41,710 nucleotides of DNA, taken from Intoshia linei (taxonomy: Eukaryota > Orthonectida > Rhopaluridae). Position numbers and translations under genes: made by a program. This document shows, in pieces, positions 3,049-40,571 of this stretch; positions within the stretch are counted from its first letter, which is position 1; each line of letters opens with the position of its first letter. The DNA lies in assembly GCA_001642005.1 (NCBI GenBank), contig LWCA01000192.1:1-41710 (forward strand), written 5' to 3'. The notes under the pieces are model-generated. The model was not told the origin of the DNA and did not search any database. It saw only the letters and a program-made list of their open reading frames with translations.

Positions 3049-3325
3049 TTAAATGAAGTACATGAATGTAGTAATAAAATGAAATAAAATAAACTTAAAT
3101 CACAAAAAGTGAAACTTAGTTATTGCACTCATAATTTTTATTATGTAAAAAATAAATTGGTTAGTGCAAATTTTGCATAAATGCTTAAATGCAATTTATA
3201 TGCGTGCATTTATTGCATTTAAAAATTAAAAATTAGCATTATCAACGCAAAATTTTGACTTAAAAACTACTTTTTAGCATTTAAAATTTTGTCTAAAAAT
3301 TACAGGCTCACAATTGTATAAAGCA

Positions 3326-3853
3326 GGCATTCTTAACACTTTTTCGTTGTGGACCCCAAAAAAATTAATTATAATGACAATTTTTAATGAATCATTACAT
3401 TTGGGTGAAACGAATAATGGTCAAAAGACATAGAGTACTCTATTTTTGCGAGGTGATAAACTTGATGAACTATTAATATTAACCTTAAACTTGTCAATGT
3501 TCCCAAAATGGAACATGTTTTTCAGGTATTGTTTACAGTACATTATTAGTTGTTTACTACATATTTTATCAGATCAATAAAAAGTCTATATTATCTATCC
3601 TTCCTGTGACGAATTAATATTTTATATCCCTTGGTTGATGTTTCATAGAATCATGAATATTGACTGATTTTTTGTCATATTTTCAATTTGAAATTTAAAG
3701 CTTTTTTTTATGAATGGAAACTTGGCTCGGTCATAAATAATAAAATAATTAAATTAAACCACTGCTTCTATAATAGAACAATAGAGATTTCTTAATAAGT
3801 TTTTACACTTGTAAGTAATTTAAGTGCTGTGGACCCCGTTGAGAATGGCTGGT
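3326..3853. mobile_element. hAT MITE with perfect 8-bp TSD
   Basis: GTATAAAG flanks both sides. The ends are CAGGCATTCTTAACAC and the inverted GTTGAGAATGGCTG; both halves carry the GTGGACCCC block just inside. No coding capacity. A diverged second copy lacking clear ends lies at about 34420-34840, sharing the GGTTGATGTTTC block and the ACTTGGCTYGGTCATAAA block. Confidence 0.8.
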
Positions 3854-3914
3854 ATAAAGTCAATAAAATTAGCATTATCATCGAATTTTTAGGTCAATAA
3901 AATGTCGACTCTAA

Positions 3915-5540: not shown

Positions 5541-5544
5541 ATTA

Positions 5545-6640: not shown

Positions 6641-6720
6641 AATATATTATACATATACGTATAACGGTTAATTATAATTATAATGATTATATCTATTGTA
6701 TAAGGAATGTAATTATTTAG

Positions 6721-7189
6721 CTCGTAAATTTATATTATTTTTAAAATTTTTATAATTTTCTATTTATGATTTCAGCTAGTAATGATTAATATTTTTTTTA
6801 TTTGTCTTTTTCCCATTGCGCCTTTAATATTGTCAATATAAATATTTAATTAGGATTATCGTTATAATTCAATAATTTTAGTGTGTATTATAATTATACT
6901 TTTACATTTTTTAATAAATTAACATTTCGACTTATTTACTAAAAATTTTAAATATTTTTAATGCAAAGTTTTATTCATATTAACTGAAGGGTTAATAAGT
7001 ATGAAAATAATTTTTTATTTAATAGTTATTTGTAATGCAATCATTGAATCATTATTTTATTTTAAAATTTTTTAAAATACATGCATTACTTGAAATGATT
7101 TAGTCTGTAATAATTTTTAACTTAATTTTTATTATCTTATTACTGTTGAATATACAAATACAAATACATTATAAATAATATTCTAGTAG
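6721..7189 (+). other. Micro-exon cluster 1
   Basis: Five units in 470 bases. Candidate exons are 6721-6723 (CTC), 6776-6778 (CTA), 6882-6884 (TGT, donor GTATTA), 7104-7106 (TCT) and 7187-7189 (TAG). Each follows a T-rich tract ending in AG and, with the stated exception, precedes GTAA. Gaps between them are 52-219 bases. The TAG triplet would be a stop in phase 0 but not in phase 1. An isolated earlier candidate with the same layout is CAG at 5155-5157 followed by GTAAAA. The cluster is cut off on the right by the hAT element at 7251. Confidence 0.5.
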
Positions 7190-10100
7190 GTAATTGAAAT
7201 TTTGAAATTTTTTTATTGTAATGGTGTTGGATGATAATTTTTTGTTTATATAGTGCGACCATAAGTACGTTATTTTATAAAGGCACAGTGCCAATAACGT
7301 ACTTTTAACGTACTAAATAAAGTTATGAATTTAAATTTTATATTACAAATTATATATAACTTTTACTTATTTTTACGTATATATAGTATATATTTTAACA
7401 TAAACCATTCAAATTCAATATTTATCACCATTCTACTTTGTTATTAGTAAAACTCAAGTTAATTGGATCAACATACAAAAATGTATCACAATTTATAACA
7501 AAATAAATTTAATTAACAAGATAAATCGAGATAAAATGTTCAATGAATTTGTTACAGTTGATGTATGTTTAAAAAATTCTCCTACTATTCCTCCTTGGAA
7601 GGATTTGTGTGATAATATCGATACTAATGGATTCAAAAAATTAATCCAGTTTTATTATTCTCTAAATTGCTCAAATACATATATAGAAAGAGTATTTAGT
7701 GTTACTAATAATTATTGGACAGAACATAAATCCAACCTTAGCTTAAAAACATTAAAATCTGTCATTTTATTTCGAGAAAATTCAAAGGAAAAATGTACTA
7801 ATGTTTATAAAAATCTGTTAAACGACATTTAAATTTGTAAAAACATTAATTCTAGCAATAAATACATATTTCATTTTCAGCAATTACTCATGGTTATCAT
7901 AAACTTTATGTCTCAATTTAGTTATTGTCTAGTTACACAATTTTTTTTATATATTTTTTACATTTTCGTTTCTAAGCAATATTAGTACGTTAAAAATATG
8001 GTCGCACTAGTTTATATTAACGGTTTCACATTTTATCGTTGTATTTTGATTTTTTTAAAAAAATTATTTTGTATATTTTATTTATTTTTCTTGTTTTTTA
8101 TTTTTAAAATCACTTGAAAGTTATATAAAAAACATTTAAAAAATTATTTATCATCAAATGTTATACTAAAGGCTTTATTTAATAGCCATAAATAAACCAA
8201 CTCTTAAGGAAAATACCATTTTACCCATAGGGTTAATAAAACTGGATTTTTCTTTTTAGTGTTGGTAAAACTAGAACTTTCTATAAAGGGTTGGTAAATT
8301 AGATTTTTAGTAAAAATGGTTGGATTTTTGAAATTTTAGTAAAAATTTTTGAATGATTCATATATGAATCATTAGATGTGAAACCGTTAATAACATAAAT
8401 AATACATGGTAATTATGAAATCATAGAATGTAATTAAAATTATTTATGTACATTAGGGGTATTTCATTTGGACTTTATTGAAATAAAAGAAATTATCTGA
8501 CTAGGAATAATCAGTTTCTAAGTAAAAATGCTACAAAAATATAAAAAGTCAAATGTTTTTTTAGGGAGTTAATCAATTTCCAGCGTAAAATTTTTTTTGT
8601 CATAAAACGTTTTACCTTTCCAAATTTGCTATTTTTGTATCTTTTGTTGAGTCACACGTTAATGTTATATATGTTATGTAGTTAAAAAATTGTAAATTGG
8701 TTTAGTATTTTTTATGTAAAAGTGGTTTTAGTATATAAAACAATTATAATATACAAAAAAAATAATAATAATAAACAAAAATCAACATAAATTGTATATT
8801 TAATAAATTTTACAAAAAAAGTGGACTTTCGTAGATCAGTTAAATAGCAAAACTGTGGTCTAATAATTTAAGTAATGACTAAGAACTACCAAATGTAGCG
8901 ATACTGAAAAATACTTTTAAAAATTTTAATCCACACGGGACACCTTACTTTACATGTATATTTTTAGTGTGTAAATATCACTTTTAAATTCAATTTATAT
9001 ACACTTACTTTATAATCACTTTTTATATAAATATCAATGTAATATGACGTAATTATTTATAGTAAGTTGTAATATGATAAATTTTTTTTTATATTATTAT
9101 AATAAAATCCATCTGTTTTATACATTTAATTTAACAAAATAAATAAGAATAATATAAACAATAATAATTATTATACATTATAATATATCAATCGTTATTT
9201 TTATTATTTAGTTAGTAATACAATATTCCAAAAAATATTTAATTTAGTTTAATAATTGGATGAATAATGTTACAATTAAATTGAAAAATTGTATATAACT
9301 GGAGAGGCAAACATTCACCGGATTTCAATTTTTTCAGAACAAAATAGAGCAATATAAGATTTATTTCAATATAAATAAGCATTATCTCAATGAGATAAAC
9401 TATAGAGAGAATATTGTATTCATCCATCATAGTGATAATATATAATATTTATATTATAATTATAATAGCAATTTGTAAATATATAATTATTAATTCTAAT
9501 GAATTTTTCACATTTTTTTTTATTATATTTTATGTACAATTGTATCTCAAATATTTTTTTTATTTAGTCCGTAATATATAAACCATATTAATTAATATAC
9601 AGCATTGTTTATATAATAACTTGTTTGTTTTGTACTTTGTGCTTTAATTTCATATCCTATTATATTTATATGTATATAACATGATATGCAATATTTGCTT
9701 CTGTGTGTTACCGTTTATTTCAATAGCTACTAGTCTTAGAATTTTATAAAGTCAACATTTCAATTACAGTTTTTTCCGGGAGTCTTATCAAAATAAATTT
9801 CAACCATATAAACTCATATCTTACGGGTCAAAAAGCCCAATCATCCTTTTTTTGAAAATCAAACGAGTTCGAGAATTAAAAAATATATACTCTGATACGG
9901 ATTTTAAAATCATAAATATTATGTTAAATTTAAATTTAAAAAAATATATCTTCAGGGCCAAAACCACAAATTACCCGTTTTTTTAATGAAAACGGCCCTA
10001 GAATTTAAAAAAATTACAGGTGATACAGTTGTATCCTGTTAACAAACACACAAAAATTTCAATCTGAATAAGTGACGTCTTTAAGGTCAAAAAAACAGTT

Positions 10101-22100: not shown

Positions 22101-25100
22101 ATATTGTCAGGTTAGATTACCGGATTGCTATCATAACTTTACTGACGGTTCTTTAGACTTTTGACTCTTTTGATGACTCAGATACACTAGCTCAAATTCA
22201 TAACCTAAACTGATTTACGTTTGACATATAACGAAACCAACATCTACATGCCATTACCAATCGAAGTTGACTCTTATCAATTGTACCTAATTAATACTAT
22301 CAAACCGTAACGCAATTATTTACCTATTTTTACCTAGAAGTTTTTTCGTAAATTTTTTTCGTATTGATTCAATGGTGATTCAGTTAGCGTTAAAGTGTAA
22401 GCGTGTTTTAAATTACAGGACAGAAGTATATGTTATTACTATAGATATAAAGTTTTACATGGGGAGTGGGCCTCACAATATTATTACTCATCAATTACCT
22501 CAAAATGATGACAGAAATCATATCAACATACCTATTACAGTTAATTCCCTGAAAAATTATTTTAATGGCGAATTTGTAACAATAAATATCGTTAAGGTAG
22601 CGATTCGCAAGAAAATTTAAAAAGTTTCAATTTTAGTTATCCATTATTTTTGGAATATACTTAATAGAATATAATTCTTGTATAAATCAATCACGTCATA
22701 TTAATTTTTATATATTGATAAGAATGTAGTCGACAATTACCAATATTCAATATCAATGTTTTGATGTAGATGTAGAAGTAGTGAGTTAATATATAACCGT
22801 ATTATAAGAACCGCCTTAGAAAAAACGTCTTAACGATATATACTGTATATTATTGAATTTATTTATATTTGCATTAAATAAATACACAATTTATTTAATT
22901 TTATTTTAGTAAGTAAATGATATTCGATATTTGAATATTTACATTTACATTACAAAGATGCATACAGTGAATGTTTAAATTTTATGGCTAATGGGTGCTT
23001 AGAGAGAATTTGAATTTAGATATTATCATATAAATATTATGTAGTATTATACTTTAATTAATTCAAGTAATGTGATAATGTTTTTGATTTTTGAAGTTGA
23101 CTATAAAAACATCACTTTCACCCCGGTCTAATTTATATAAATATAATAAAAATTTAGTTCGTAAATAAATATTAATAAGTTAAAGATTACAACAATCTAC
23201 TAATGCTTAAATTCTGTTAAATCTGCTATGTTAATATATTTCAATTTATAAATATGTATTTATGATTATTAAAAATTTAATAAAACTTTTATAATATTAA
23301 TTAATTTGTAAAATTACATAATATTGGTATAATTAAGGAGGTATATTATTTTTTAAAATATATTAATATAATATATTATTACGTGCTTACATAGTATATA
23401 ATATATAATATATATAATAAATATAAAATTAGTTAGTAAATAATAAAATATACATATACATAATAGGACTTAATTATAGTATTAATATATATATAAAATA
23501 TTATCGATTAATTTGTAATGTTTAGTGTGTAATAATTTTTGAATTTCAATTTCTATGCAATAAATTAACCATTACATGAAAGTATCACTTTCTACTTTTA
23601 TCTCATTTCTAAAATTTAAAAATGTTAAATTTAATGTTGAAATAAAAATAATGTAACTAGTTGGTAAATTAGAAATAATTATTAATATAAAATATTAAAT
23701 TGAGATTATGATATAATATTTATCAAAATCAGCTGGTAATGTTAAAATATTAATTTTTTATTTTTCATTTTTAAATTAATTTTTTTTTGATTCAAAAAGT
23801 TGGTAACTATAATAAATAATACAATAAATATATTAAGGTAAGGACCGGAGAGTTAACAGTGGACTTAGTTCAAATGAAAATTGTATATACATTAAGACAT
23901 AGATCGGCAATCATTAGTCCACATATTGATTTTGGTCGCTCTTTGAATAAATATGTACATTATTTGTTTTTCAATTTTTAAACACCGTTTTAAAAATTTT
24001 CTACTATAATTGGCTCACTATACTCATTTTTATTCTGAATTTTTAGATTGCCCTGGATATTATTTTGTTGAATATACTGGAACCGTTTCTCTCCGTAGCA
24101 CTAGTTAAAATTGAGATGTATCATGTGTAAATTTTCTAAAACGGGACCAGTCGATTTTTTGATATAAAAAAGTGACCCACCAAACGCAAAATGTTGCCGA
24201 TCCCTGTACTGTGGTGTATTTCGAAAACGTTGTCATTGGTAACATATTTAGATTGAATTTGTAAAAGTTGTATTAAGAACCCAACACCAATAAAATTTAT
24301 ATTAACACGAAGTCTCTCACGCATTTTTTATAATTTCATTCAAAAATATTAGAGAAAAGTTAAAAATGAACTTTATTATATTAAATAGTGAAATATGGTA
24401 GTTACTAAGCGTTAACCTTTTGAAGTAAAATAAGATTCGTCTAACCGTTAGACTCTAATGGTTATAATCTAACCATAAGTAAAATTAAATTATATGGGAA
24501 AAAGGAAACATGTCATGGTGAGGGGTTTTTTGAACTAAATTAAAAATATTTGTATCATTCCGCTGCAAATTAAATGATTATCATCATTCACCAATTCTTT
24601 TTTATAACTCAAAACAACCAAAAGTGGAATTGACCTAAAGTAAATTGTATGAAAAATGTTGTTACAATTAAATATTTGAAGTTTACATTGTAAATAAAGT
24701 TTTAAAACGTTTAAAAAACATTTCACTGTCATTCATAAAATATAAATATAATTTTTAAAGCTGGTAAATGATTTTATTTGTTATTATTGATAAATTTTTA
24801 TTAATGAAATGTTAAATTAACATTTAAATATTAACAAATATTAAAAATTAACATTTCATTATTATTTATATATTGGATAAACATCATATTTAATAGCTTG
24901 TAATATTTTATTTGAATCACAATATATATATGAAATTTTAGCTTCATTGACATGATTATAATGACAGATACCAGAATTTACTAAATTTTCAATTTGATCT
25001 ATTTAACTGAAGTCTAGTCTATACTAGAGTGTTTAACTTTTGTAAAAAGTACTGAGTTATTTATTAAGTATACATTATTATGTACTTAGTTTTATTTTTA

Positions 25101-28100
25101 CTGAGTTATTGGATTTTTTAAAAATTCAGTACAGTACTGTACTTGGATGAATAAGCTTATTTTTAAAATTTTTAATTTTGCAAATCATATTGCATCAGTT
25201 GAAAGATTATTTTCTGCGGTGAGATTATTCAAGTCTATTCTTAAATTAGGATTACGACATAATTAATTGAAACTGAATTTTAAAATTGAATAAAAACTTC
25301 ATGTCTACAAAAAGTAATTTATAATTAATTTTTTGTTAATAAATAATTTAATTATCTACTTTTAATGATACTATATATATTATAGTTTCTAATAAAATTT
25401 TAATATTATCTTTTTCTAAATATCAGTTATTTATTTATTATAAATAATATAATTTATTTCTATCTAAAATCAGAAACATTTATTGTATTTAATTTTTTTA
25501 CATCTTGTAAACGAAAACTGAAAATTTAACAAATTTTTAAAGTACTTTTACTAAAATTTGAAAAAAAAAAATTTTACTGAATTTTTATTTTTTAAAACTA
25601 ATTACTTACTTAATTTTTAAAAAAACTAAGTTGAACACACTAATCTATACTTAAAGACTATTTCATTTTGTCTGTGTATTGTTATTATATTTTATATGAA
25701 TCCAATTCTGATAGTTAGTAATCCAATACAAAAATTTATATAATATACTATATCATATTGTATATGCAATGTTAGGATTGTTAATGTTAGAATATTAAGT
25801 TGCATATAAAAAGGACCGATGATGTGATGATGAATGACGATTAAATATGATGATTGTCGCACAAACGTCCTTAAAAATAAAAACTTGTCTGTTTATTTGC
25901 GATATCACTAAATAATAACGGAAACAAGATTTACCCATAATTACCAATTAATAATTATAATTGAACACTGAATTTATTGAGGCGCTCATTAAATGCACAT
26001 ACAATGTAATACATTTATTGCAAAAATATCATTTAAAACTAAAAATTACGTTTAGACGGTAAATAGACTTATGATATTTAAATATAAATTAAACGGACAA
26101 TAAAATTAAAATTCACATATTTTATATTACTAATATATTAAATTCTTAGATGGTAAGTGTTAACGTTACCATTAATTGTAGTAAATATAAATAAACAGTG
26201 TCATATAAAATTGAATTTAATTTTTAGTGTGTAATTTGAATTATTAAAATTTAATAAACTACCAAATGAAATGTTAAATTGAAACATCCAACCTATTAAT
26301 CTAAATTTATTTAGTTTATAGTAATATTTAAATTAAAAAATTTTATTAGTGATTTATATGTTGTTAATTTAACGTTACTTTTAGACGGTATATTCAATAT
26401 TCCATAGGACAATAAGTTATTGTCAATAACATTTATTTAAATTATTAATCTGAAAATTAAATTTTAGACAGAAAACGTAAGATAGATTAATAATTATTAT
26501 TTTAATGATAAACTAATGTATTTCATTGCAGATAGTAAGAAACATATAAAATTAATCAAATCATCATAACATTAATATAGTTGGTAAATAATATATATTA
26601 GTATACAATTTTATAATAATAGATTATAATATATTTAAATTAAAATTTTTTAGAACGTAATGTATACATATTTCGTTATATATTTACAAAATATTTGATG
26701 ATTTCAACTGTTATTGATTACATTATTATTTTTTATAGTTGGTAATACACATTTATTTAACAATTAATAAAATAATACATTTTTAGCATGTAATACTAGA
26801 TGAAGATGCATGATTTATTCATGAATATAACATTGATTTAAAGCAGGGTGGTCCAAAGACGTGTCGAGTGAGGGCCAAAAAATTTAAAATTTTCGCGGAT
26901 CGTAATTTTGAAATATTTTTAAAATAATAATTTATTAATTCTTTTGCCTTAGTTTGATGTTCTAATTCAAATTTATAAAGCGGTTTTCTCCAATGCATTG
27001 CTCATTTTCATTCCATAAATAATTAATAAAGTTTATTGACATGCTCATTCACTTTTCATTGATAATTGCAGCTATATCGCTGCCTGGCCACATTTTTTGG
27101 ATCACTGTGATTTAAATGATAATTAGATTGAAAATATTTTTTATTATTATAAATGTAAACGTTTTGATATTTTAGACTGTAAATCGAAATTTATTCACAC
27201 TGACTTTGTAAATAAATTAATTTGTATTATAGTTGGTTATTTTAATTTTTAAAATGAACTACATTAAATTTAAATTTTTTTCAAATTTAAAATGGTATTG
27301 TATAGCATGTAATTATAATTAATATAATTATATTTTACTTTTAATGTCATTTAAATTATTTTTTATTATTTTATATTACACGTATTTAAGGTTATTTTAA
27401 TATTTGATATAATAGTTGGTATTTTTAAACAATATTACTATATATTCTTTTTATAATATTTCTAATTTTATTTATCCAGAAATTATGAGTAATCTAATTA
27501 ATAATGTTCATTGCAAATATTATAATTCTATCATTATAAATTCGAGCTAGGAACATAATACCCTCAACAAAAACCGTTTTAATCAAGTGATAATTGTACT
27601 TGAACATATATATTAAATATAAATTAAAAAAATTTTGACAAAAATGAAAACTAAACAGTCTAAACAATTTTAAAATAAATCTTAAAATGTATTATACTAG
27701 TGTGAATATATTTTAATCGATTGACTTTAATAATTTAATACAAATGAAAATTTGATTTCATGAATATTATATGTATTTACTAAATGTTAATACAAATGTA
27801 TATAAGGAAATTATAAAATCAATTAGAAAATAATTTCATTCCTATAAAAATCCCCCAGGTTGAATCTCTGCTTTAAATTAACGTAGAAAATTTATGAATC
27901 ATAATCATTATGATATTGAAAAATATAATATTTTTGTAACAATATTATAATTTATATAGCTAGTAAGAATATTGTCTATTTACTATTTACTAACATTTAA
28001 ATATAGTATTTATAATAATAATTATTATACATGATATTATATTATTATGAATTATAATTCAACTTTAATTTCAAAATTTTAATTTAAATTCATTTTTATA

Positions 28101-31100
28101 GGCAGTAATCATTAAAATGACAGTTAAGCCTCCACTATTAGCCAAAATAAAGAATTCAACTAAATTTTTTGGCGAATATTGGATATAAATTAACGTAAAA
28201 TAATATATCAATTAAATTTAGTAAGTAAATTTAAAATATATTATATAATTAATAGTAACTATGAGCGATTAAAATTAAAATTTTAAATCACTTGATTATA
28301 ATCATGATCAAGTTGATATCCTTTTATTTTTCTTATAAAGCAACCTCCAGTTTTTTCACATGTTTCATGATCTTTCGTGGTATCCCACTTGAAAATATTA
28401 TACTAACAGGTTAAAAATTATATATAATGATAATTTTAAATTTAAAGTAAACTGTACCATTTTACTGTAATAAGAATAAAAATATCAAATTATTAATTTT
28501 AGAAAAGAGTAAAATTTATTTACATTTAAAATCATCTAAAATAAATGTATTATCACAATTTAATTTAATCAATTGATAGAAAGTAACAATACATTTTATC
28601 AACAATTGACAAGAGATGATTTGTCATTCAATTAAAATTTTTTTAATAGAATGTAATAAAAACATAAATATAAAATATAATTATAAACAAGATAATTCTT
28701 CATCCACAAAGTTTTCTACGATAAAAAAAAAAAAAAAAAAANNNNNNNNNNNNNNNNAAAAAATCAATTTATGAAATTTTTACCCATATCTCTTTTTGAA
28801 AACGAGTAGACGTTTAATGCAATTTTTTTTAATTGTAGGATGAATATTTACATATTCATTATTAATTTTTATCATGCCATTTGAAAAATATAGTTTGATA
28901 ATATATTAAAAGTTATTTTACATCGGGAATACGTATATTTCTGAGATTAAATTTTTGTATCTTTATCAACTGGACTAAGCTATATCAGATCAATCTTCTT
29001 TTTTTAATTGTAGGACTGTTAATTATTTCAAATTGTTTGTTTTAATAAAATAGTTTCGAAATAAAAAAAATGAATACTAAAGTGGCTTTTTGACCTCTCT
29101 TCTCTTGATCTTTTTAAAATTCTAGGATTATTTTCATTGTTTAAAAAAAGCGTAATCTTGGTTTTGATATAAGTATTTAATTAATATCGTAGTCGGTAAT
29201 TCACTTAATTAAATTACTGTAGTGTACTGTCATAATTATCAATTTAAATTTTATTTAGCTTGTTATGTGAATAATTATTCATTTCTTTTATAAAAGATGG
29301 TATTTTATTTTTTAAATTAGTTCAATTCAATTTAATATTATATACTACATGTAGTCGTGTGTAAATTTATTTGAAATTTATTGTAATTATGAATAGGGTG
29401 TTCAGCTGATATTATTACACAAGCTGTTAATTAATCATTTTAGTCTGTAATTATTTTTTTATTTGTACATTATACGATAAAGTAGAATCTACATTGTAAA
29501 TGTAGATCAACGGTCTCTAATAAATTTGTTTTGTGATATCAACACAAAAATCAAATTTTTACGCCTATTATTTTTCTCGAACATTTTAAATTTTATTTTT
29601 GTGATATTTTTCATACTTTTTTAAAAAAATTCTCGATAAAATTAAAGGTTAATTACATAGATAATTGCGTATGTTTAATATTCATGATTTAATTTTTTAT
29701 TTCGTTAGTTGGTATTTATGCATAACAACTTTAACATATTTAATAAATAACTCTTAATATTTAATATTTTAGCTTGTAAATTTAAAGTTAATATAATAAT
29801 GTTTTGTACATTGTGCAATGTACAGTGTAATACAGATATACAGATTTTGTATACTAATTTTAAAAAAGCAGTTGGTAACATTTTTATTAGCTATTAAAAT
29901 TATAAAAATTAATGATATAATATTTTATGACATGGTATAATAAATTTTAAAATAATAGTGAGTAATGTTTTATTATTAAATTAATATAATTATTACTACT
30001 AAATGTTAAATTATAATTAAAAATTAAATACACACATAAACTGTATGTATAATTAAACTTTACCTATTATATTTCAGTCGGTAATTTTTTAATTTTATTT
30101 CATATTTATTAAATTAATGAAAAATTAAATTATATAAACCGAAATAATAATAATAATAAATTATTTTATATAAAAAAAATTATAGAAGGTAAAATCATCG
30201 TCTTTAATCATTGGATCCGCAGATCCTACCGTTTGCTATAAGCTTTTTATTAATGTAAAAAGTTTATTTAAAATATGTTGGAATATTTAAGTTTGGATTT
30301 AAATTTAAATTTGTAATTTTTACATGTCATTTAAAGTTGAAATCTGGATCTGAAAATAATTGTATTTCATACAGAATTTTCGTGAGTCAAGTTTATGTAA
30401 AAACTAAGTGGGAAGTCTTTGTATAATTTACCAGTACATTAGATTTAATTGTTAACATTGTTTTATTTTAGAAATTTGTAATTTTTATTTTTAGATTTTG
30501 TACCTAGTGTCGAACATACCGTACCCTCGACCCTCCTCGGATGGATAATTTTATTTTGTAAAATGTAAAAATGGAGCCTGATTTTACCAAAACTATCCTT
30601 GAATACCATAACCATTTTGTTTGTTACGTTTAAAATGTTAACCTTATAGCTCTATAGAGGTGGCTAAGGGCTATATAACACTACAAATTGTTTGTGATTT
30701 TTTTGTTAGGCATATTTTTCATTTTTAATGGCCGACAGCTGGCTAGATTCGCTTCTATTGTACCTTATGTTTTATTATTTAAAATAGTGAAGATAAGTAA
30801 ATATCACCATATGATTATTATATTTATCCAGAATTATGTGCACATATAAATTATTTTTTCAGTTATAATTTTAATTATGCATAATCAAATTTATACTTTA
30901 AGTCGATATTCATAAATTACGGTGGAACTTATAATATTATTCTTAATTTAGTTCAAAGTAAGTTTTGAAATTCTATTTTAATTATAAGCAGTCATTTATT
31001 ATATTTTAATATTTAGAAATATTAACTAAAGGTACACTAATTGCATTTTATATAAATTTATAATTTTTTAGTGGATGATAATAAAGGTAAATATAAATTT

Positions 31101-34100: not shown

Positions 34101-37100
34101 ATTATTATTACTATGAATGCTCAATTTAACAAACACAACGTTACCTGAATTTTATGTTAATTTAAAATTTTAAAGAAGTTTAAGTACATTCCCAAATTTT
34201 AAAAAAGTTAAGGTATGTCTGTTTAATGTATCCTTTTATTTAAAATAATTAAAAATCCATTAGAGATACATTAATTGATAAGGATAAAGGTTATAATATA
34301 TAATAATATATTATAACCTCATAACAATAGTAGAGTCTTAAAGAAAAGAGATATAATACTTTTTTATTTTTTTTTACTTTTATACTTTTATAATATTTAT
34401 TTTTAATGAAGAGTTAAAAAAGGGATGAAGGTTAAACTTTATCCCGCTAATGTTCTCAAAATAAACATGTTTTTAGATTATTGTTTACAGAACATTACAA
34501 CTTACTCTATATTTTATTAAATCAAAAAAAAATCTAATAATATATTATTATCTATCATCCCTGCGAAAATAAATATTTTATAACCGTTGGTTGATGTTTC
34601 GAAAAATCATGAATATTAAAAGATTTTTTATATCATTTTCAATTTGAAATTTAAAGCTTTTGTTTTATTACTAAAAACTTGGCTTGGTCATAAAGTATTT
34701 TCCATCAAATGTATAATATTGTCATTGAAAATAATATAAATTACTATACTGGGGTGACTGTATTAATATAATAAAAACAAATGCTCCTAAAATGGAACAA
34801 TGGAGGTTTCCCAGTAAGTTTTTACAATTATGTTTACATTTACAATTATTTTGAATTTGAAAAATGTAATATTTCCGTACAAAATTATCAAATGTTTGTG
34901 TTGATTAAATTGAGGGTTGACTGTATTTATCTAAACTAATTAATTATGAAAAATCGTAAAATTCAGATACTAATTTAAGACACATAGCAAGTAAAATTAT
35001 ATTTAATATTATAAAATTTATGTATGATGAGACATCATTTGATGCGTAAAATTTCATTAAGTCGTAAAAAATTGGAATGTATGCTTTCTTGTGCGCGTAA
35101 ACATTGGATTTAATTGCATGGTTCAAAAATAAAAAAAATTTATTATTAATAATTTTGTACGAATATATTTTTACTGAGTTATACAATGGCAAAAGTGTAT
35201 CCATAATAATCTATATTATTGATAGATTATATATAAAAGCAAACTTTGATAAAATTACCATAGGAATAGAGAAGTCAATAAGTCAATGGCTTAATTTTCT
35301 ATACATCTTAAACTTATTGATGAAAAATTTGTTTTTTTATTACTTTTAATACTTTTTATTATTGCTTTTTTGGCTTTCTTTGGCTAATACATAATTGGTA
35401 TTTTTAAGTATTTATTAAATTGTACTGAATATATATTATCACTATAGGAGACTAAAAAGAGCACTTTTGAAATGATAAAACACGTATAAAAATAATAAAA
35501 TGTATGATACTAATTTTAATGATCATTCATTATAGCTAAGTGCATTATCTTTATGACATAATCGTGCTAAAACTGTGTTTTTTATATTTTAATTATATTT
35601 GAAATTGTTAAAAAACATTCATCAATGACATGTCATATCATTTTAGTGTAAAATAATATTTTGATCGCTTTACTCGTTTGTGTCTACTCTGATTATCACA
35701 TTGAAAATGACAAAATAGGTTTTTATAATTTTATTTTTCTGTTATTTATGCATAATTAATAAATATAATAATATAATAAATCAAATTATCAAATTTTCTA
35801 TGCCCAAAAATGAACAAATCAGACTCGTTAGTGCTTAACGCCATTTTATTTATTACATGTACTATATGTAATAATAATATGTAATAAGTATGTATGTTTA
35901 ATTACATTAAATATTTTTATTTGTCGTTCCAATTTTACAGTCTTCGGTTTTTGGAAACACTACCACGTACTGTACATTTATTCACTTTTAAAACAAATTG
36001 TTTTGTATTATTCTTTTTTAATCGTACTTTTTTATAGAAAAAGTTGCATTAAGTCAATTTTTTTTTAGAGTCAATAAAAAATTTGCCCTAATTATAATAT
36101 AATTATATATTGTTTTCACTGTTTAAATTACCAATATTATCAATTTATGTTATCTTTCTTAACGACTACAAACAGCATATCAAAATATTATTTGTATTTT
36201 CACGCTTTTAATTAATTAATTAGAGTTTTTTATACATAGTATATGAAATAGTACAGATATACAAAGTATATAAATGTATATAAAAATAACAATTGTTTTT
36301 ATTATAATTATATTATTTAAATATCCTTATTAAAGTCAGTAAGTTGTAAATAAAGTTAAGTTATAGTACAATCAATTACATTGATACATTTAGAAAGTAA
36401 ATATTTTGAAATTCATACAAATACGTATGCAAGTATATATAAACCAGTAAGTGTATGATCAAATTAAAAATTTAAATATATATTCTAGTTAGTAATAAAT
36501 TAAAATACATCAATAAATTGAACATTATATCAATTACATACATACAGTGCGCGTAATAAACATAGGAAACCCCGATTTATATTATTTTTTGGTCTATTAA
36601 CATTAATTTTCATGAATATTTCATCTCCATTAAAAAAGGAATTTAAAAAGTACGCTTGTTGATACCATTATTTTTCTTCTGCCACCTTTATATGAAAAGT
36701 TATCACACAAATCGCTAATTAGCCGCGCAATAAACATAGGCACCTTAAATTAAAATAATTTGTCTTTTCTCCTTTATTGACCACAACTTCTAGGCATCTA
36801 TTTTTCATTGTCAATACTAACTTTTCAATAGTATCTATATGGATATTTTTCCATTCTGTCAATATTATTTGCGTCAGCTGATACCTATTTTTAAATTGCC
36901 TGCCATTTTTGTATAAGGACCTTGCCAAAATTCCCCATAAGTTTTCTATTGGGTTAAGGTCAGGAGACTTCGATGGCCAGTTTATTACATTAACAGAATG
37001 TTCTTCAAACCATGTTTTAACAATACAAGAAGTGTGGATTGGAGCATTATCTTGTTGAAAAATGTAATTTGTACCATAATGAAAGTGAGCAAATGGAAGT

Positions 37101-40100
37101 AGAAATTCAAATAAGGTAAAAATATAATCCTCAGAGTTTTGATTTTTATTCAGAATCGCCAATTTGGATTTGCCTTTCTATGAAAATGCTCCCCAGACTA
37201 TTACCGATCCACCTCCACTTTGCCGCGTAAAGTAAACTTCTTTTTCCTTTCGTAGATCATGCCAATAAAACTGGAATTCATCAGGACCGTTTGATCAAAT
37301 CAGTCCAAATTGAATTTTTTTTTATCCGAGAATATCACAGAATTTTAATGTGTATCCAAATCCACGTATTTTCTGACAAAAAAAATCTTATTTTCTTTAT
37401 GAGCTTTTGAAAGGACCAGAGCATGATGTCGTTTACTCCATTGAAGGTGGGAACAATTACTTATTACCTGTTGAACGGTACAGAGCTTCACGTCTAATTC
37501 TGCATTTTGCATAATGTTTCTAGCTGTATATTGACCGCTTAAAGCCTCACGTATAATATGAAACTCCGTTCTTGAAGTAAGTTTCTTGGGCCTACCTGGA
37601 CTTTTTGACTTTCCATATGACTCTGGGTTGTGTATAAACCTCGATACCACATTTCTAGACCTTTTAATCTGCTTAGCAATGTATTTGTGTGATTTATTTA
37701 TTGTTTTTAATGCCATAATTTGACCTTTTTCAAAATCAGTTAAAAATACAACAAGCGTACTTTTTAATTCCTTTTTTAATAGAAATGAAATATTCATTAA
37801 AATTAATGTTAATAGACCAAAAAATAATATAAATCGGGGTGTCCTATGTTTATTGCGCGCAATGTATATTAAAAATATGTATAAATATAATAATATGTAT
37901 AAAATGGTTTTAATATGTGTTGTTACGATTCTAAGGAATCGTAAATCACTGAAATCGCTCGATGTTAGGAACCCGGAATCAGTAAAAAAATAACGCTTAC
38001 GTTTCTTTGGGAAATACGATAGTAATTAGTTTAAAAAAACTAAGTTTTTTTAAAATTAGATAAACTTGCTCAATATTATTTTTTTAATTTATTATGTATT
38101 TATATCATAAATAGTACATAACTTGGCATATAATGAGGAATTAAATTACATACTATTATAATTATGTATATATAATAAATAATATATATAAATAATAATT
38201 ATGTTATTATCTTATATATAAAATGAAGAGCTTTTTTTCCTGTCTAATGTATATACTATCTACAATGTATATTATACATACAATTATATTATTTTTATAA
38301 GTATACTATAAAATTTTTATTGTTAAAATACCATATAGTGCGTAATTTTTAAACTTATTTTATACATATAGTGGATCCACTATTAACCGCTGATTCCGTT
38401 ATTCACTAAAAAAACTAGTACTTTTGATTTTTAGTTTTTTTGTATAAAATTTTTACTTTTAATTTTTATTTTTTTTATATAAAACCTCCGTTATTCGCCA
38501 GTTTCCACTGTTCGATAAAAAATTTTTCAAATTAATCGAAAAAATAAAATAAATTGTATTTGCAAACCGCGAGTATATAGAAAAAATGTTAATATATCAT
38601 GATCTTTAAATTTGAAGAATTATATAACTTGTGATATGTGAATAAAATACCGTTTTCACTATTAACAACAGTAAAATTCATCTTTATAATGATATAAATA
38701 TGTATACTAAATTGATAAACATTTTCATAAAAACTGGGTCTATTATTCTCCAAAAATTGTGCATCCAGATTTAGGCAAATTCTGAAGGCTTCACTAAACA
38801 GACTAATTCGTCAATAATTATCTATAGTCTCTATATCAGTGCTTCCCAAACTATTTATGTTCATGGCGCAAAAAAATAAGTAAAAAATTGCGGCGCACTG
38901 TATACATTGCCTATATTTCTATCTTTAAAAATGTGTATTATCACAGTTGTTCTCAAACGTTTTTAATAAGGGTTCCCGTCAAATGCAATAATTATTAATT
39001 TTTTTATGATGAAAATTTTGAAAGATGATAATAATTACCGAAAAAAAATATTTTACACTTTGTTTTAGTGTATTTATAAAACGTATGTACTTTATGCATT
39101 AAAATTTAATGATTAGATAGACATTTTTATAATTTTAAATTATAGATCGTTAAAATAAATAATCAAAATTTAAAAAAAAACACAGATTCAGGTGCCGGCG
39201 CACCATTTGGAAGCACTGCTCCATATATACATATATACTGTATACTTTATAATATAGTACAGAGTTTATATTATATAATTATAATTTATATACGTTTTAT
39301 TTAGGATTAGGTATTTTATTTATTTTAAATAAATTCTCATACAATTGACAATCATCTTATATGTAGTTAGTAATTAAAAATATGTTACAATTTATTATAC
39401 GTTTTTAAAAAAAATGTAATTACATTGGACTACGATTATGTCAATGTACCATGAATTGAAATTGAATTTGAATGAGCCATTAAAAAATGGTTATGTGCTG
39501 GAAATCAATTTAAATCGTTTTCCATTTGGCAAAACGTTTTAAAAGTGATTATACTGTGTAAATTTTAAAGGAAGCTTTTGTAAGTTTTCACATATAAATA
39601 AATTTTTTATTTTGGGGTGTTTACCTGCACAAATAATCGTCAACTAAACATATTTTTCAAGTAACTTTCTATGAAAGAGGAGGGAATATCAATTTAATTG
39701 AATTAAGATTGCATAAAATAAAAATCGACTGTCAAAGGTTTATTTTTCATTTTTTTCGTAGTCTTTTGGAGAAATTTGATATTATATTTCTGTATTATAG
39801 TTAGTAATTTAATATATTTTAAAATTAATAACATTAGTATGTAACTAAATTATAATATTATATTTATATTATATTTATTATTATTATAAATGTAGATGGT
39901 TATTAAATTAATATTTATAATAATATTTATTTATGAAAAATGATAATAATCAAAAACAGTTGGTATATTATTTATGTTAACAGATTTAATTATGTATTAC
40001 AATTTATAATTATAATTAAAAAAGTATCACTGTCAAGTTACACCTTTCATGATTAAACATTCTGTTCATCATTATTCATTATACCCTACCATAAAAAATA

Positions 40101-40571
40101 GCACAATTAAAATTTTTATTATATTCAAATTTAGAAAATTTAACATATTATTAAGATTTCATGATTAAATAAAAATTCAACCTTTGAACTTTCGGAACAT
40201 AAAAAAATATAATTTAATTATAAATATATAAAAATATTATTTAATTAACTAAAATTATGAATAAATCTGTATTATATTGAATATGTAAATATGTATTAAG
40301 TTTCTAGAAATTTTATAACATATACGTATAAAAAATTACATTTTTAAAGGAAGTAATAAAAACTATAATTATAAATTATTTAAAATATACCAGACAAGTT
40401 TTATTTTTAAATATTAGTATGTAAATTGCTCAATTTCATTTAATGATATATTAATATTATATGTGAAAATACTTTTAGTCAGTAATATTTTGTTTATATT
40501 ATTATATTATATTATAATATAAATATTTACTTATAAGTTTTGGATATATCATAATAATTATTAAATAGTTT
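6721..40571 (+). CDS. Candidate gene made of dozens of 3-nt (and 6/9/15-nt) micro-exons
   Basis: Seen: about 80 units of the form T/A-rich tract, AG, three bases, GTAA (or GTAT/GTAG) on the + strand, spread over 34 kb and mostly outside recognisable transposons. The longer members found are nearly all multiples of three (6, 9 or 15). In 22-30.5 kb I counted about 38 forward units and only about 2-3 reverse-complement matches, so the signal is strand-specific. Read as 3' splice site, exon, 5' splice site, every exon is symmetric; with all introns in phase 1 the joined units contain no stop, while phases 0 and 2 contain several. Known: micro-exon genes with symmetric exons exist in schistosomes, and aphid bicycle genes have many short exons; neither is known to me as runs of 3-nt exons. 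Inferred: one gene with micro-exon coding. Product unknown; the 3-nt units give mostly hydrophobic and small residues, the 15-nt units acidic/Asn-rich ones. First and last exons not found. Alternatives: recursive splice points or a degenerate non-coding motif array. Confidence 0.5.
7251..8009 (+). mobile_element. hAT element with open C-terminal domain
   Basis: Ends are TAGTGCGACCAT at 7251 and ATGGTCGCACTA at 8009, a perfect 12-bp inverted repeat. GTTTATA is repeated on both outer sides (7244-7250 and 8010-8016). Subterminal copies of an ACGTACT/AGTACGT motif occur near both ends, as expected for hAT transposase binding sites. It contains the frame at 7536-7832 and lacks the rest of the transposase. 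Confidence 0.8.
7536..7832 (+). CDS. hAT transposase C-terminal (hATC) fragment
   Basis: The 98-residue frame carries the hAT dimerisation domain in its second half: a tyrosine-rich helix, then ERVFSVTNNYWTEHKSNLS and a leucine-rich stretch ending in FREN. Full hAT transposases are usually 500-700 residues, so only the last exon or a deletion remnant is present; no DDE catalytic residues are included. The frame is intact up to its stop, unlike most other transposon coding here, which may mean recent origin. The Met at 7536 is simply the first in frame and may not be a true start. Confidence 0.75.
   Translation: MFNEFVTVDVCLKNSPTIPPWKDLCDNIDTNGFKKLIQFYYSLNCSNTYIERVFSVTNNYWTEHKSNLSLKTLKSVILFRENSKEKCTNVYKNLLNDI
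8020..8388. mobile_element. Small TA-flanked MITE abutting the hAT element
   Basis: A perfect 12-bp inverted repeat, ACGGTTTCACAT at 8020 and ATGTGAAACCGT ending at 8388, is flanked by TA on each side, as in Tc1/mariner-type MITEs. A palindrome, TGATTCATATATGAATCA, lies just inside the right end. Repeated GGTTGGTAAA-like blocks fill the middle. The left end is only 10 bases from the hAT right end. Confidence 0.65.
8427..9570 (+). other. Micro-exon cluster 2
   Basis: Units between transposons: 8427-8429 (AAT), 8968-8970 (TGT, after a run of T), 9063-9068 (six bases TAAGTT, or three bases with a poor donor), 9212-9214 (TTA) and 9568-9570 (TCC). The larger spacing than in cluster 1 is partly explained by an apparent mariner-like MITE at about 8454-8945. 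Confidence 0.45.
8454..8945. mobile_element. Possible mariner-like MITE
   Basis: TTAGGGGTATTTCATTTGGA on the left loosely matches the reverse complement of the right boundary (TAAGGTGTCCCGTGTGGA), each beginning with TA. No frame is present. The match is imperfect, so this is a tentative call. Confidence 0.35.
9640..10275 (+). repeat. Family A repeat, internally deleted copy
   Basis: Begins in the TGATATGCAATATTTGCTTC region, runs through the ACTAGTCTTAGAATTTTATA block and ends with CGGCAGAGCTAGGTGCTGTT, the GTACGTAGTAC palindrome and AGTCAACCTAGTT. The middle third present in the 5545 and 20018 copies is missing. Confidence 0.7.
10797..11462 (+). repeat. Family A repeat, second deleted copy
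   Basis: Same structure as the copy at 9640, with an additional left terminus CCAGAGGTGGGGAGAGAGTC that may be the true outer end and a GT microsatellite near 10953. It ends in GCAGAGCTAGGTGCTGTTTG and AACAGTCAACCTAGTT. The two deleted copies lie about 0.5 kb apart in the same orientation. Confidence 0.7.
11463..12034. other. Unassigned AT-rich stretch
   Basis: No frame, repeat or micro-exon unit recognised here. Confidence 0.4.
12043..12716. mobile_element. hAT MITE with 8-bp TSD (one mismatch)
   Basis: Ends are CAGGCGTGTCAAACTTGCGG and the inverted form ending GAGTTTGACATGACTG; the GCGGCCCGCCACG block is just inside both ends and stands out as GC-rich. Flanks are CTGTACAT (12035-12042) and CTGTAAAT (12717-12724). 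No coding frame. Confidence 0.8.
12811..12870 (+). repeat. Family A left-terminus fragment
   Basis: CAGAGGATGGGGAAGTGGGG followed by a TTTTCAATAATTTTGTATTA block resembles the left end at 10798. The rest of the repeat is missing. Confidence 0.35.
12990..13968. mobile_element. Right terminus of a hAT-type element; rest undefined
   Basis: The end at 13968, read inward on the minus strand, begins CAGTGATTTCCAAACGGTTT and carries a GTCGTGACACG block, a familiar hAT-type terminus. The matching left end was not found, and the 980 bases named here hold no frame, so only the right boundary is supported. Confidence 0.4.
14497..15200. repeat. Family B element, first copy
   Basis: The stretch lies between CGGTGTCACCTC and the inverted GTGTGACACCCTA. 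The segment around 14605-14660 recurs inverted at the right edge of the window (41420-41500): both contain AACGCAACTCGAATAG or its complement and AATAAAGTTCAGTTTAA or its complement. The left end (about 14960) of a GTGGCCAAAAAAATACGTAC repeat, related to the MITE at 16116, lies inside. No clear target duplication. Confidence 0.45.
15594..16109. mobile_element. Pogo-like MITE with TA duplication
   Basis: CAGTAGAATCTCCTT on the left and AGAGATTCTACTG on the right form the inverted repeat, each flanked by TA (15592-15593 and 16110-16111), as in pogo/Tigger elements. Inside are two copies of a CAATGAAATTGACTTTA block. There is no transposase frame. A related single end lies at 40593. Confidence 0.65.
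16116..16254. mobile_element. Palindromic MITE (about 42-bp arms)
   Basis: GTAGTGGCTAGAAAAATACG begins an arm at 16116-16159 that pairs with 16213-16254, ending CGTATTTTTTCTGGTTAC; the arms continue through TAGTTTATTTGG and CCAAATAAACTA around a 53-base loop. An RNA of this stretch would form a long hairpin. A lone left arm relative is at about 14960. Confidence 0.65.
16343..17263 (+). other. Micro-exon cluster 4
   Basis: Six units: 16343-16345 (TCA), 16414-16416 (TAA), 16559-16561 (CGA), 16656-16658 (TAG, donor GTATGA), 16756-16758 (CTA) and 17261-17263 (TGG, donor GTACAT). TAA and TAG would end a phase-0 reading; in phase 1 both give ATA with the preceding A. Intervals of 68-142 bases separate the first five. 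Confidence 0.5.
17321..18095 (+). mobile_element. IS630/Tc1-superfamily relic with 21-bp TIRs
   Basis: A perfect inverted repeat, TTTTACGATCTTTCAAGTCA plus T at 17321-17341 and its complement at 18075-18095, encloses a C-terminal transposase piece (17553-17801). Near the left end an AGTCATGTTTGCA block is repeated directly. Most of the transposase is deleted, so mobility would need a partner. Confidence 0.75.
17553..17801 (+). pseudogene. DDE transposase C-terminal fragment
   Basis: The frame contains YLPPYSPFLNPIDDVFSVWK, the hallmark near the third catalytic residue in IS630/Tc1-type DDE_3 transposases (normally ...LNPIE...). Here the expected Glu is Asp; whether this is a D-type variant or decay cannot be told from one copy. 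The remaining residues are a helical tail with Cys and His. The first two catalytic Asp residues are absent, so it cannot act alone. Confidence 0.7.
18360..19236. other. Unassigned AT-rich stretch
   Basis: Nothing recognised: no conserved frame, no inverted repeat with duplication and no micro-exon unit. It separates the unit at 18349 from the piggyBac relic. Confidence 0.3.
19237..19960 (+). pseudogene. piggyBac-type transposase pseudogene
   Basis: Pieces of a PGBD-like DDE_Tnp_1_7 transposase follow in order: an N-terminal helix around FEETVKQSIYYTTQ (another frame), ILKMGVIPLPRYRMYWS, MTRDRFEDIKKYLHFA, a TAG stop, IDRLYKISKI, then VVVHLFQSLNKINHILCFDN (the usual DNxF motif is DNYF here) and, in a third frame, GTMRKNRMQRAPVM. 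Frame changes, stops and an internal deletion between these motifs show it is dead. The Cys-rich C-terminus and TTAA-flanked ends were not found. Confidence 0.75.
20018..21180 (-). repeat. Family A repeat, longest near-complete copy
   Basis: Runs from AACTAGGTTGACT and GTACTACGTACAAACA through TAGCTCTGCCGATGCACAC, the CCAATTTGTTTCAG-like block, ATCAACTGGAATAAGCTATA and CCCGTAAGATGCGAGTTTGG to CTCACCCCTAGGTT. The two outer ends are weakly similar when inverted (AACTAGGTTGAC and AACCTAGGGGTGAG), consistent with a DNA transposon. The short frames inside (such as 20176-20364) lack features. Confidence 0.7.
21428..21866. mobile_element. Possible hAT MITE
   Basis: CAGTGTTTCCCAATCTTTTT at 21427 is a typical hAT end, and GTTGGGATTCACTAC near 21853-21866 could be its inverted partner. 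A strong internal palindrome, GGATAATCCATGGATTATCC, is at about 21662-21681. No clear target duplication was seen. Confidence 0.4.
22030..22900 (+). other. Unassigned stretch with an 82-codon frame
   Basis: This region is less AT-rich than its surroundings. The frame at 22372-22620 starts MVIQLALKCKRVLN and ends in a basic KVAIRKKI; I recognise no family, signal peptide or membrane segment. It could be a fragment of an unknown element or chance. It fills the gap between the micro-exon units at 21998 and 22910. Confidence 0.25.
23904..24206. mobile_element. hAT MITE relic
   Basis: The right end, read on the minus strand, is CAGGGATCGGCAACATTTTG, a very common hAT terminus; the left end, ATAGATCGGCAATCATTAGT, is its diverged partner. 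The stretch between has no valid frame. No target duplication was recognised. Confidence 0.55.
24210..24750. other. Unassigned stretch
   Basis: It contains an imperfect palindrome around CTAACCGTTAGACTCTAATG near 24440. The frame at 24535-24732 (minus) shows no family features. No micro-exon unit with a good acceptor was found. Confidence 0.25.
25025..25642 (+). mobile_element. hAT element with 8-bp TSD (one mismatch)
   Basis: Ends are TAGAGTGTTTAACTT and the inverted AAGTTGAACACACTA; flanks are GTCTATAC (25017-25024) and ATCTATAC (25643-25650). Subterminal repeats of an AGTAC/ACTGAGTT motif are seen at the left. It contains the hATC remnant at 25180-25266. Confidence 0.75.
25180..25266 (+). 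pseudogene. hAT dimerisation domain remnant
   Basis: The frame reads ANHIASVERLFSAV followed by RLFKSILKLG and a TAA stop. The SVERLFSA core is the hATC signature. A further in-frame LKLNFKIE after the stop looks like the former tail, so the stop is probably a decay mutation. Confidence 0.7.
25720..26050. other. Unassigned stretch
   Basis: Low-complexity start followed by a GATGATGATTGTCGC-like segment. No frame or unit recognised. Confidence 0.25.
26056..27418 (+). other. Micro-exon cluster 7, the densest run
   Basis: Fourteen units in 1.36 kb: 26056-26058 (ACG), 26150-26152 (ATG, followed by the full donor GTAAGT), 26228-26230 (TGT), 26385-26387 (ACG, donor GTATAT), 26468-26476 (nine bases ACAGAAAAC, donor GTAAGA), 26532-26534 (ATA, after TGCAG), 26581-26583 (TTG), 26654-26656 (AAC), 26739-26741 (TTG), 26787-26789 (CAT), then the hAT MITE 26843-27108, then 27176-27178 (ACT), 27233-27235 (TTG, donor GTTATT), 27306-27308 (CAT) and 27416-27418 (TTG, donor GTATTT). 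Predicted introns without the MITE are 45-154 nt, matching short insect introns. ACG, TTG and CAT each recur here. This is the best stretch for an RNA test. Confidence 0.6.
26843..27108. mobile_element. hAT MITE with perfect 8-bp TSD
   Basis: GATTTAAA flanks both sides (26835-26842 and 27109-27116). Ends are GCAGGGTGGTCCAAAG and the inverted TTTTTTGGATCACTGT. It splits the interval between the micro-exon units at 26787 and 27176, with no unit inside. Confidence 0.8.
27420..27955. other. Interval without units
   Basis: No transposon ends with duplication and no frame were found; a CCCCCAGGTTGAATCTCTGC block at about 27854 could be part of an old hAT end. Confidence 0.25.
27960..28652 (+). other. 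Micro-exon cluster 8
   Basis: Units at 27960-27962 (CTA, donor GTAAGA), 28102-28104 (GCA), 28222-28224 (TAA), 28503-28508 (six bases AAAAGA after a T-run AG), 28580-28582 (AAA) and 28650-28652 (AAT). The run stops before the poly-A, the N gap and a family A fragment at 28770. Confidence 0.5.
28742..28757. other. Assembly gap (16 N) after a poly-A run
   Basis: Sixteen N follow about 19 A, and the next bases are again A-rich. The true length here is unknown, and units may be missing. Confidence 0.95.
28770..29165 (-). repeat. Family A fragment beside the gap
   Basis: Matches the central part of the 20018 copy, including TATCAACTGGACTAAGCTAT and the GAATACTAAAGTGGCTTTTT block, but lacks both outer ends. 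Confidence 0.6.
29193..30477 (+). other. Micro-exon cluster 9
   Basis: Units at 29193-29195 (TCG), 29259-29261 (CTT, donor GTTATG), 29355-29360 (six bases TCGTGT), 29444-29446 (TCT), 29709-29711 (TTG), 29773-29775 (CTT), 29872-29874 (TTG), 29959-29961 (TGA), 30078-30080 (TCG, after TTTCAG), 30186-30188 (AAG) and 30472-30477 (six bases AAATTT). TGA would terminate phase 0 but not phase 1. Confidence 0.55.
30495..30770 (+). repeat. Family A variant (family C) fragment
   Basis: Shares the order GGAGCCTGATTTTACC, the CCATAACCATTTTGTTTG block, CTCTATAGAGGTGGCTAAG and GGCTAGATTCG with the stretch at 31870-32160. That second copy ends in a diverged family A end, so family C is probably a relative of family A. 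Confidence 0.5.
31324..32369. mobile_element. hAT element, 15-bp TIRs
   Basis: CAGTGTTTCCCAACC at 31324 and the inverted ATTGGGAAACACTG ending at 32369 define it; outer flanks GTTTAAAC and GTTTAGGG agree at 5 of 8 positions. It has absorbed a family C copy (31870-32190). The 76-codon frame at 31343-31573 is within non-coding sequence and shows no transposase motif. Confidence 0.65.
31870..32190 (+). repeat. Family C copy ending in a family A-like terminus
   Basis: Similar to 30495-30770; the right end, CTGTTTGTGCCAAGTACATA followed by ACAGTAAACTTTACTAG, is a diverged form of the family A terminus (CTGTTTGTACGTAGTACATA). Confidence 0.5.
32940..33365 (-). repeat. Family A copy in two pieces
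   Basis: An internal piece (CACTTATTCAGATTGAAAT through TGTGGGGTTTTGATCG) is followed at 33190-33365 by the terminal piece with GTACGTACAAACATCACCTA and the TTCCCAAATTTGTTTCAGGT-like block. Both read in the minus sense, but their order differs from that of a complete copy, so two insertions are likely. Confidence 0.6.
33520..34060. other. Unassigned AT-rich stretch
   Basis: No gene, transposon end or micro-exon unit recognised. Confidence 0.25.
34420..34840. repeat. Second copy of the 3326-3853 hAT MITE
   Basis: Shares the AACATGTTTTTAGATTATTG-like block, the GGTTGATGTTTCG block, CAATTTGAAATTTAAAGCTT and GGTTTCCCAGTAAGTTTTTA in the same order and orientation. Outer ends are eroded. Confidence 0.55.
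35390..35760 (+). repeat. Family A internal fragment
   Basis: Matches 6166-6260 (AATTGGTATTTTTAAGTATT and CATTGAAAATGACAAAATA), with about 230 bases inserted between the two blocks. The two frames near 34944-35349 overlap on opposite strands just to the left and lack family features. Confidence 0.5.
36545..37864 (-). mobile_element. Tc1-like transposon with ~66-bp TIRs and an inner repeat
   Basis: The ends are CAGTGCGCGTAATAAACATA and, inverted on the right, CATTGCGCGCAATAAACATA, each flanked by TA. The inverted repeats run on for about 66 bases at high identity. A second copy of the outer motif, CGCGCAATAAACATAGG, lies in the same orientation at 36724-36740, which gives an IR/DR-like left end such as is known from Sleeping Beauty-type elements; no inner copy was seen on the right. 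Confidence 0.9.
36719..37797 (-). pseudogene. Tc1-like transposase, DD34E, broken
   Basis: The transposase reads leftward from 37797. An N-terminal paired-type HTH region (ALKTINKSHKYIAKQIKRSR) is followed by a GRPKKLTSR AT-hook-like linker, a second helical region, and the catalytic core: FSDKKKF (first Asp), QQDNAPIH (second Asp) and PDLNPIENLWG (Glu), with 34 residues between the second Asp and Glu. Two stop codons (after VDLDTH and in the WGAFS region) and a frameshift between about 37270 and 37310 break it into pieces 37345-37797 and 36719-37162. The core residues are all still present, so decay is recent. The stop region overlaps the inner direct repeat of the left end. Confidence 0.88.
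37870..38330. other. Unassigned stretch
   Basis: Contains a GATTCTAAGGAATCG near-palindrome at 37927 and simple TA-rich sequence. No frame or unit. Confidence 0.25.
38360..38560. mobile_element. Pogo/Tigger-like terminal fragment
   Basis: GTGGATCCACTATTAACCGC and later CCTCCGTTATTCGCCAGTTT resemble the repeated blocks at the ends of pogo-type elements; a related CCTCCACTATTAGCC block occurs at 28128. Limits unclear. Confidence 0.3.
38837..39218. mobile_element. hAT MITE with 8-bp TSD (one mismatch)
   Basis: Ends are CAGTGCTTCCCAAACTATTT and the inverted ATTTGGAAGCACTG; flanks are CTCTATAT and CTCCATAT. The GCGGCGCACTG and GCCGGCGCACC blocks lie inside the two ends. A second hAT-like end (CAGTTGTTCTCAAACG at 38945) suggests a nested relic. 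Confidence 0.75.
39420..39780. other. Unassigned stretch
   Basis: No frame, transposon end or unit found. Confidence 0.25.

Follow-up and report, generated by a model that had tools for sequence, protein, structure and literature searches.

Can a gene be made up of exons that are nearly all a single codon long? The question is raised by a stretch of 41,710 nt from Intoshia linei, an orthonectid and parasitic lophotrochozoan (for the parasitism see PMC6543705), in which units of AG, three nucleotides and GTAA recur along one strand. This whole stretch (C1046:1-41710 of an assembly of 34.65 Mb in 1319 contigs) is referred to as the window. A sequence-only reading had proposed that about 80 such units belong to one gene with exons of mostly one codon. 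Our analysis confirmed the observation and makes the single-codon-exon interpretation a strong prediction: the window very probably represents much of an Intoshia linei protein-coding gene whose internal exons have a length of exactly 3 nt in almost every case and of 6 nt in a few.

AG-N3-GTAA was found 74 times on the + strand of the window and 8 times on the - strand, while 500 dinucleotide shuffles gave 9.3 ± 2.9 copies with a maximum of 19. The strands are thus unequal, and the earlier figures of more than 60 exact copies, against about 12 expected from composition, were close to ours. With a T or C in front ([TC]AG-N3-GTAA) the counts were 66 and 2 (shuffles 4.5 ± 2.0, maximum 11). When all AG-to-GTAA spacings from 0 to 39 were counted, 3 was the sole outlier (74/8), the rest giving 3 to 19 per strand. 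The A of 70 of the 74 units lies within 6721-40571. Between 22 and 30.5 kb, where the sequence-only reading had about 38 forward units and two or three complements, we counted 32 with GTAA or 38 with GTA, and 2 on the complement. The motifs are short and the genome is 77% AT, both of which speak for chance, but the counts already refute this explanation, and stretches without arrays (75.5 kb) gave 16 and 15 on the two strands; next to no likelihood is left to it.

A splice-site matrix was built from 412 units in eight contigs including the window. The triplet was not scored, and the selection of these units already required GTA[AT] at the donor. T or C was found at position -1 in 360 of the 412 units, G was scarce between about -20 and -3, and the letters after the donor were rich in T and A. 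Beyond such splice-like letters the flanks carried almost no information, and no clear motif emerged when a branch point was sought around the units. The one ordinary intron examined, that of an Hsp70 gene, starts with GTTTTT and ends with TTTTAG. At a score of at least 10 bits the window has 83 units on the + strand and 6 on the - strand. The array proposed earlier, of about 80 units, contains 82 of the 83, from the triplet CTC, whose first base is position 6721, to the triplet TTT at 40569-40571, whose last base is 40571. Two of the 83, at 31279 and 31282, overlap and represent at most one real exon. The array continues almost to the right-hand end of the window, which may therefore lack part of the gene on that side.

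A repeated DNA motif, such as a binding site or the ends or scars of mobile elements, might mimic paired splice sites, and the units are indeed numerous and located in AT-rich, repeat-laden regions. However, repeats (common to other loci fetched, or within the window) constitute 23.3% of the window and hold only 1 of the 66 [TC]AG units, which bears out the earlier statement that the units lie largely outside transposons. The nearly uninformative flanks, the restriction to a single strand over up to 34 kb and the avoidance of stop codons between neighbouring units described below also argue against a DNA motif, and we regard it as exceedingly improbable.

The units are not confined to the window. 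A search of the genome with a one-unit pattern pointed to clusters on other contigs. Single matches mean little, since the pattern gave 84 and its reversed form 71, and five loci from the first one-unit pattern held no array. When pairs of closely spaced units were sought with three patterns, 94, 44 and 65 matches were obtained, whereas the reversed forms yielded 31, 34 and 24. Twelve extra contigs, all picked because they were flagged by the pattern searches, were read: first C615, C559, C329, C1112, C351, C897 and C171 (with the window, the first eight contigs) and later C1212, C527, C347, C938 and C488. All twelve were found to carry one-stranded arrays, which gives 13 contigs with the window. 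Repeated same-strand pairs of units also occur on C872, C881, C827, C520, C238, C896 and C443, which are likely or possible further arrays. An inner array boundary was found upstream in C1046, C171 and C351 and downstream in C615, C329 and C1112; the arrays are therefore not one giant gene. The remaining arrays extend to the end of their contig, and several contigs could each hold a piece of the same gene. The 13 contigs read and the others flagged support the prediction that one-codon-exon genes form a set in Intoshia linei, not the single gene first proposed.

In the 13 contigs (250.5 kb), 519 units of at least 10 bits lay on the strand of the array and 26 on the opposite strand, and single-strand runs extended up to 34 kb. 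The exon length was restricted too. At a threshold of at least 12 bits, forward and reverse counts were 402/7 for 3 nt and 35/8 for 6 nt, and no forward excess was seen for 0, 1, 2, 4, 5, 7 and 8 nt (9/10, 8/9, 3/11, 10/18, 6/9, 8/11 and 6/12). A slight excess was found at 9, 12 and 15 nt (14/10, 17/11 and 24/14). Lengths from about 28 nt upwards showed a mild excess, e.g., 22/7 at 41 nt, which we ascribe to acceptors paired with the donor of the following unit; some longer exons may also be present. The five contigs outside the training of the matrix repeated the strand and length result (40/0, 32/1, 30/1, 17/1 and 16/1). The distance between neighbouring units, less 3, had a median of 134 nt and quartiles of 83 and 429 nt, values that are inflated by missed units; the median intron of Intoshia linei is 57 bp (PMC6543705).

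These lengths bear on recursive splicing, in which long introns are removed piecewise at ratchet sites and the three bases would be lost and remain untranslated. It would account for an acceptor with a donor close behind it in every unit. However, zero-length units lacked a forward excess, only 3 nt and weakly 6 nt were enriched, and avoidance of stop codons in one phase between neighbours is unexpected if the bases are discarded. We consider ratchet sites of this kind very improbable.

The arrays appear to belong to the parasite itself. A contig (C495) carries an Hsp70 open reading frame that matches Intoshia linei HSP70 with 100% identity across 98% of its length, and the Hsp70 locus and the window have several repeats in common; host contamination as the source of the arrays is therefore unlikely. 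An aphid origin, which the AT-richness and the bicycle-like exon phase had suggested, was rejected on the strength of the Hsp70 match. A search of the genome for COX1 gave no match. On the contig of another array, a long open reading frame similar to Raptor of mTOR complex 1 was seen (C329:20001-23498, minus strand), with 26-35% identity to other animals and fungi; the 120 matches listed of 307 included none from Intoshia, which speaks neither for nor against the species assignment. In a comparison of the arrays at the DNA level, the similarities among the matches listed were repeats lying between units.

If the triplets are translated, their joined sequence should be readable. Three phases were tried, with 5000 shuffles of unit order within contigs, and the P values are given without correction for the three phases. 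The triplet itself as a codon was ruled out, since 38 of the 519 triplets are TAA, TAG or TGA. When the last base of a unit was joined to the first two of the next (phase 1+2), 6 stops were found at 506 junctions, compared to 27.9 ± 4.0 after shuffling, and none of the 5000 shuffles was as low. The alternative phase 2+1 showed no deficit (43 stops at 506 junctions against 41.3 shuffled). The first eight contigs had 1 stop at 376 junctions in phase 1+2 against 21.0 shuffled, and the window alone had none at 82 against 2.6 (P 0.04). The 35 six-nucleotide units contained no stop in the 1+2 phase and 3 and 4 in the other phases. These results support a codon predicted to be divided by the intron, with its first base upstream and the other two downstream. 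The sequence-only reading implies that neighbouring triplets, once joined, read through in one phase, and this was observed; it is corrected in that the triplet is not itself a codon.

The avoidance was found to depend on adjacency. A T stood before AA, AG or GA, the pairs with which it makes a stop, in 6 of 99 cases at lag 1, while other pairs had it in 135 of 407 (P 2.6e-9); at lags 2, 3 and 4 the numbers were 20/96 (P 0.06), 22/95 (P 0.20) and 30/92 (P 0.91). Stop avoidance is thus strong between neighbours, weak when one unit is skipped and absent further apart. For neighbours at most 150 nt apart, T preceded 1 of 50 such risky pairs and 67 of 218 others (P 1.7e-6). Of the six pairs that make a stop, five cover 200-1432 nt, which leaves room for a missed exon. 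The sixth, in C488, spans 122 nt, and missed exons in long gaps can therefore not explain every stop.

In the five later contigs alone, 5 of 130 junctions were stops, compared to 6.9 ± 2.0 after shuffling, a deficit that is not significant (P 0.24), and T preceded 5 of 25 risky pairs against 31 of 105 others. The strand and length results are thus repeated in fresh contigs, while the stop result is not independently repeated. Some arrays may have decayed, more exons may have been missed there, or the test may have been too small. The later contigs, together with the lack of a known homologue for the chain from C615 (below), are also what would be expected if the units were still spliced but had ceased to be translated, as exons in a non-coding RNA or in decayed genes. 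Against this stand the single stop in the first eight contigs and the exon lengths, which come solely in threes, and such an origin of the arrays as a whole seems quite improbable.

Under the preferred reading, that of translated one-codon exons, putative products were assembled by dynamic programming with the 1+2 phase, exon lengths in multiples of 3 and stops forbidden by design. Chains on the array strand contained far more exons than those on the other strand, i.e., 94/6 for the window and 76/3, 46/1, 36/3, 27/1, 40/1, 50/2 and 41/2 for seven other contigs. The chain predicted for the window has 104 residues, but will include false and omit true residues. No homologue of the C615 chain (77 residues) was found in a protein collection; short, partly wrong chains are weak queries. 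Comparison of the chains with each other gave 1 of 28 pairs above a z of 2.5 (z 3.3), a pair that is not trusted. Without clear similarity among the chains, no conservation between genes backs the one-codon-exon reading.

A stricter scan for first exons upstream of the arrays in C1046, C171 and C351 (25.4 kb) gave five candidates at four places on the + strand, one of them 6 kb from its array, and one candidate on the - strand; the background was 2 over both strands of four stretches (40 kb). A looser scan of four arrays with short upstream stretches gave none. The putative first exons, with their signal-peptide-like start, are suggestive only. Last exons were not found. We guess that the encoded proteins are short, with around 100 residues, and perhaps secreted. 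The features of the window are listed in Table 1; a search of the window against Rfam gave no match.

Table 1. Observed and predicted features of the window (positions in nt).
Feature	Position	Strand	Remarks
Candidate first coding exon with signal-peptide-like start	4069..4147	+	Prediction; would leave one codon base ahead of a GTA donor, the phase that the array needs; sole candidate of the stricter scan on + in 1-6700, with none on -
Possible first 3-nt exon, CAG, apart from the others	5155..5157	+	Matrix score 14 bits
Array of 3-nt exon units	6721..40571	+	82 of the 83 units of at least 10 bits in the window; 6 on - in the whole window
Open reading frame, 142 aa	7404-7832	+	No Pfam match; we take it to resemble the end of a hAT transposase
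Dispersed repeat	9677-10192, 10929-11447, inverted 20645-21067		Copies resemble one another at about 80-84%; others occur on further contigs and next to Hsp70
Densest part of the array	22910..30188	+	22-30.5 kb: 32 AG-N3-GTAA forward, 2 complement
6-nt exon unit, example (TTTATA)	26315..26320	+	By matrix score; 6-nt units of at least 12 bits in the window: 11 on +, 2 on -, one at 31279 being ambiguous (overlaps 3-nt calls)
Assembly gap within the array, 16 N	28742-28757		Follows a poly-A tract
Tc1/mariner-type transposon within the array	36542..38025	-	Matches to DDE_3 and HTH_Tnp_Tc3_1; inverted arms 36542-36661 and 37749-37867 (120 nt, 94%); transposase in two pieces, 36719-37177 and 37345-38025; outside the gene, in the intron between units 36489 and 38339

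How might such a gene be expressed? Exon recognition is usually thought to require room for factors at both ends of the exon. In each unit, exon sequence equivalent to one codon would lie between an acceptor and a donor, and with three bases to separate them these two sites would be too close for both sets of factors at once. Since 3-nt exons leave no room for recognition across the exon, splicing should proceed intron by intron, in a ratchet-like manner, the upstream exon being the constant partner as it grows from step to step. Each intron would interrupt a codon after its first base, and each splice would add one residue and leave a new donor for the next acceptor. Such a scheme would resemble recursive splicing, yet keep three bases per step. 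Because the frame is kept when a 3-nt exon is skipped or added, the gene could change by single residues. A possible step of this kind was seen in C559, where a recent tandem repeat of 229 nt (7912-8140 and 8130-8358, 99.6% identity) has doubled the unit CGA (8118 and 8336), an example of how arrays could gain single residues with the frame kept. The wider proposal, that of a codon-by-codon ratchet gene family in Intoshia linei adding one residue per splice in up to about 100 splices to give a short secreted protein, with alternative splicing changing single residues, is in our estimate evenly balanced between right and wrong.

On this wider proposal, one of the simplest animals would hold the most finely divided genes known. 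If the prediction of one-codon exons is true, an extreme of gene structure exists in a stripped-down parasitic animal. The spliceosome would there operate entirely by introns, with next to no exon separating them, and would provide a natural experiment on how short an exon can be. Genes with one-codon exons would escape gene finders and pose difficulties for ordinary RNA aligners, and a class of parasite proteins may therefore be absent from annotations.

Among known systems, recursive splicing uses ratchet points where an acceptor directly adjoins a donor and splicing is stepwise. The arrays share the acceptor beside the donor and the predicted stepwise splicing, but differ in that zero-length sites are not enriched (9/10 at 12 bits or more) and three bases are apparently kept per step. 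A single 3-nt microexon can be spliced, as in Drosophila homothorax (PMC7392893); there, an otherwise ordinary gene has just one such exon, which is alternatively spliced, whereas dozens would be consecutive here. Among the matches listed in a search of the open literature by titles and starts of abstracts, with the Intoshia linei genome paper and DeMarco 2010 outside its scope, there were no orthonectid microexons and no arrays of 3-nt exons.

The micro-exon genes (MEGs) of schistosomes have short symmetric exons of up to 36 bp, encode secreted proteins and lie in transposon-rich surroundings; they are stated to be without homologues outside schistosomes (PMC8293314). Signal peptides, secreted or membrane-bound products and variant proteins from alternative splicing are further marks of MEGs. 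The resemblance lies in many very short exons in multiples of three, by which the frame is kept, in a parasite and in transposon-rich surroundings. The exons predicted here are likewise symmetric and well within 36 bp (402/7 at 3 nt, 35/8 at 6 nt), but nearly all those scored are 3 nt long.

The bicycle genes of aphids, phylloxerids and coccids have on average about 17 exons, with internal exons that almost all start at codon position 2, and in one megacycle gene 2092 residues are spread over 118 exons, or about 18 for each (PMC9168663). Our arrays are similar in their many tiny predicted internal exons and in the phase, the stop deficit being confined to the phase in which exons begin at codon position 2 (it lacked significance when the five later contigs were taken by themselves). 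They differ in having one residue per exon, in occurring in Intoshia linei instead of aphids and their kin, and in the absence of the CYC (cysteine-tyrosine-cysteine) motif: the predicted chain of the window has no cysteine, and cysteine makes up 1.2% of the junction codons in the 13 contigs. Megacycle genes are likewise described as having no obvious CYC (PMC9168663). Membership in the MEGs or the bicycle genes is not claimed, and in the passages considered, PMC8293314 and PMC9168663 report genes of mostly one-codon exons for neither family. If our prediction is true, an orthonectid can be added, alongside schistosomes and aphids, to the host-associated animals whose genes are divided to an extreme degree, which raises the question of why such genes arise in animals of this kind.
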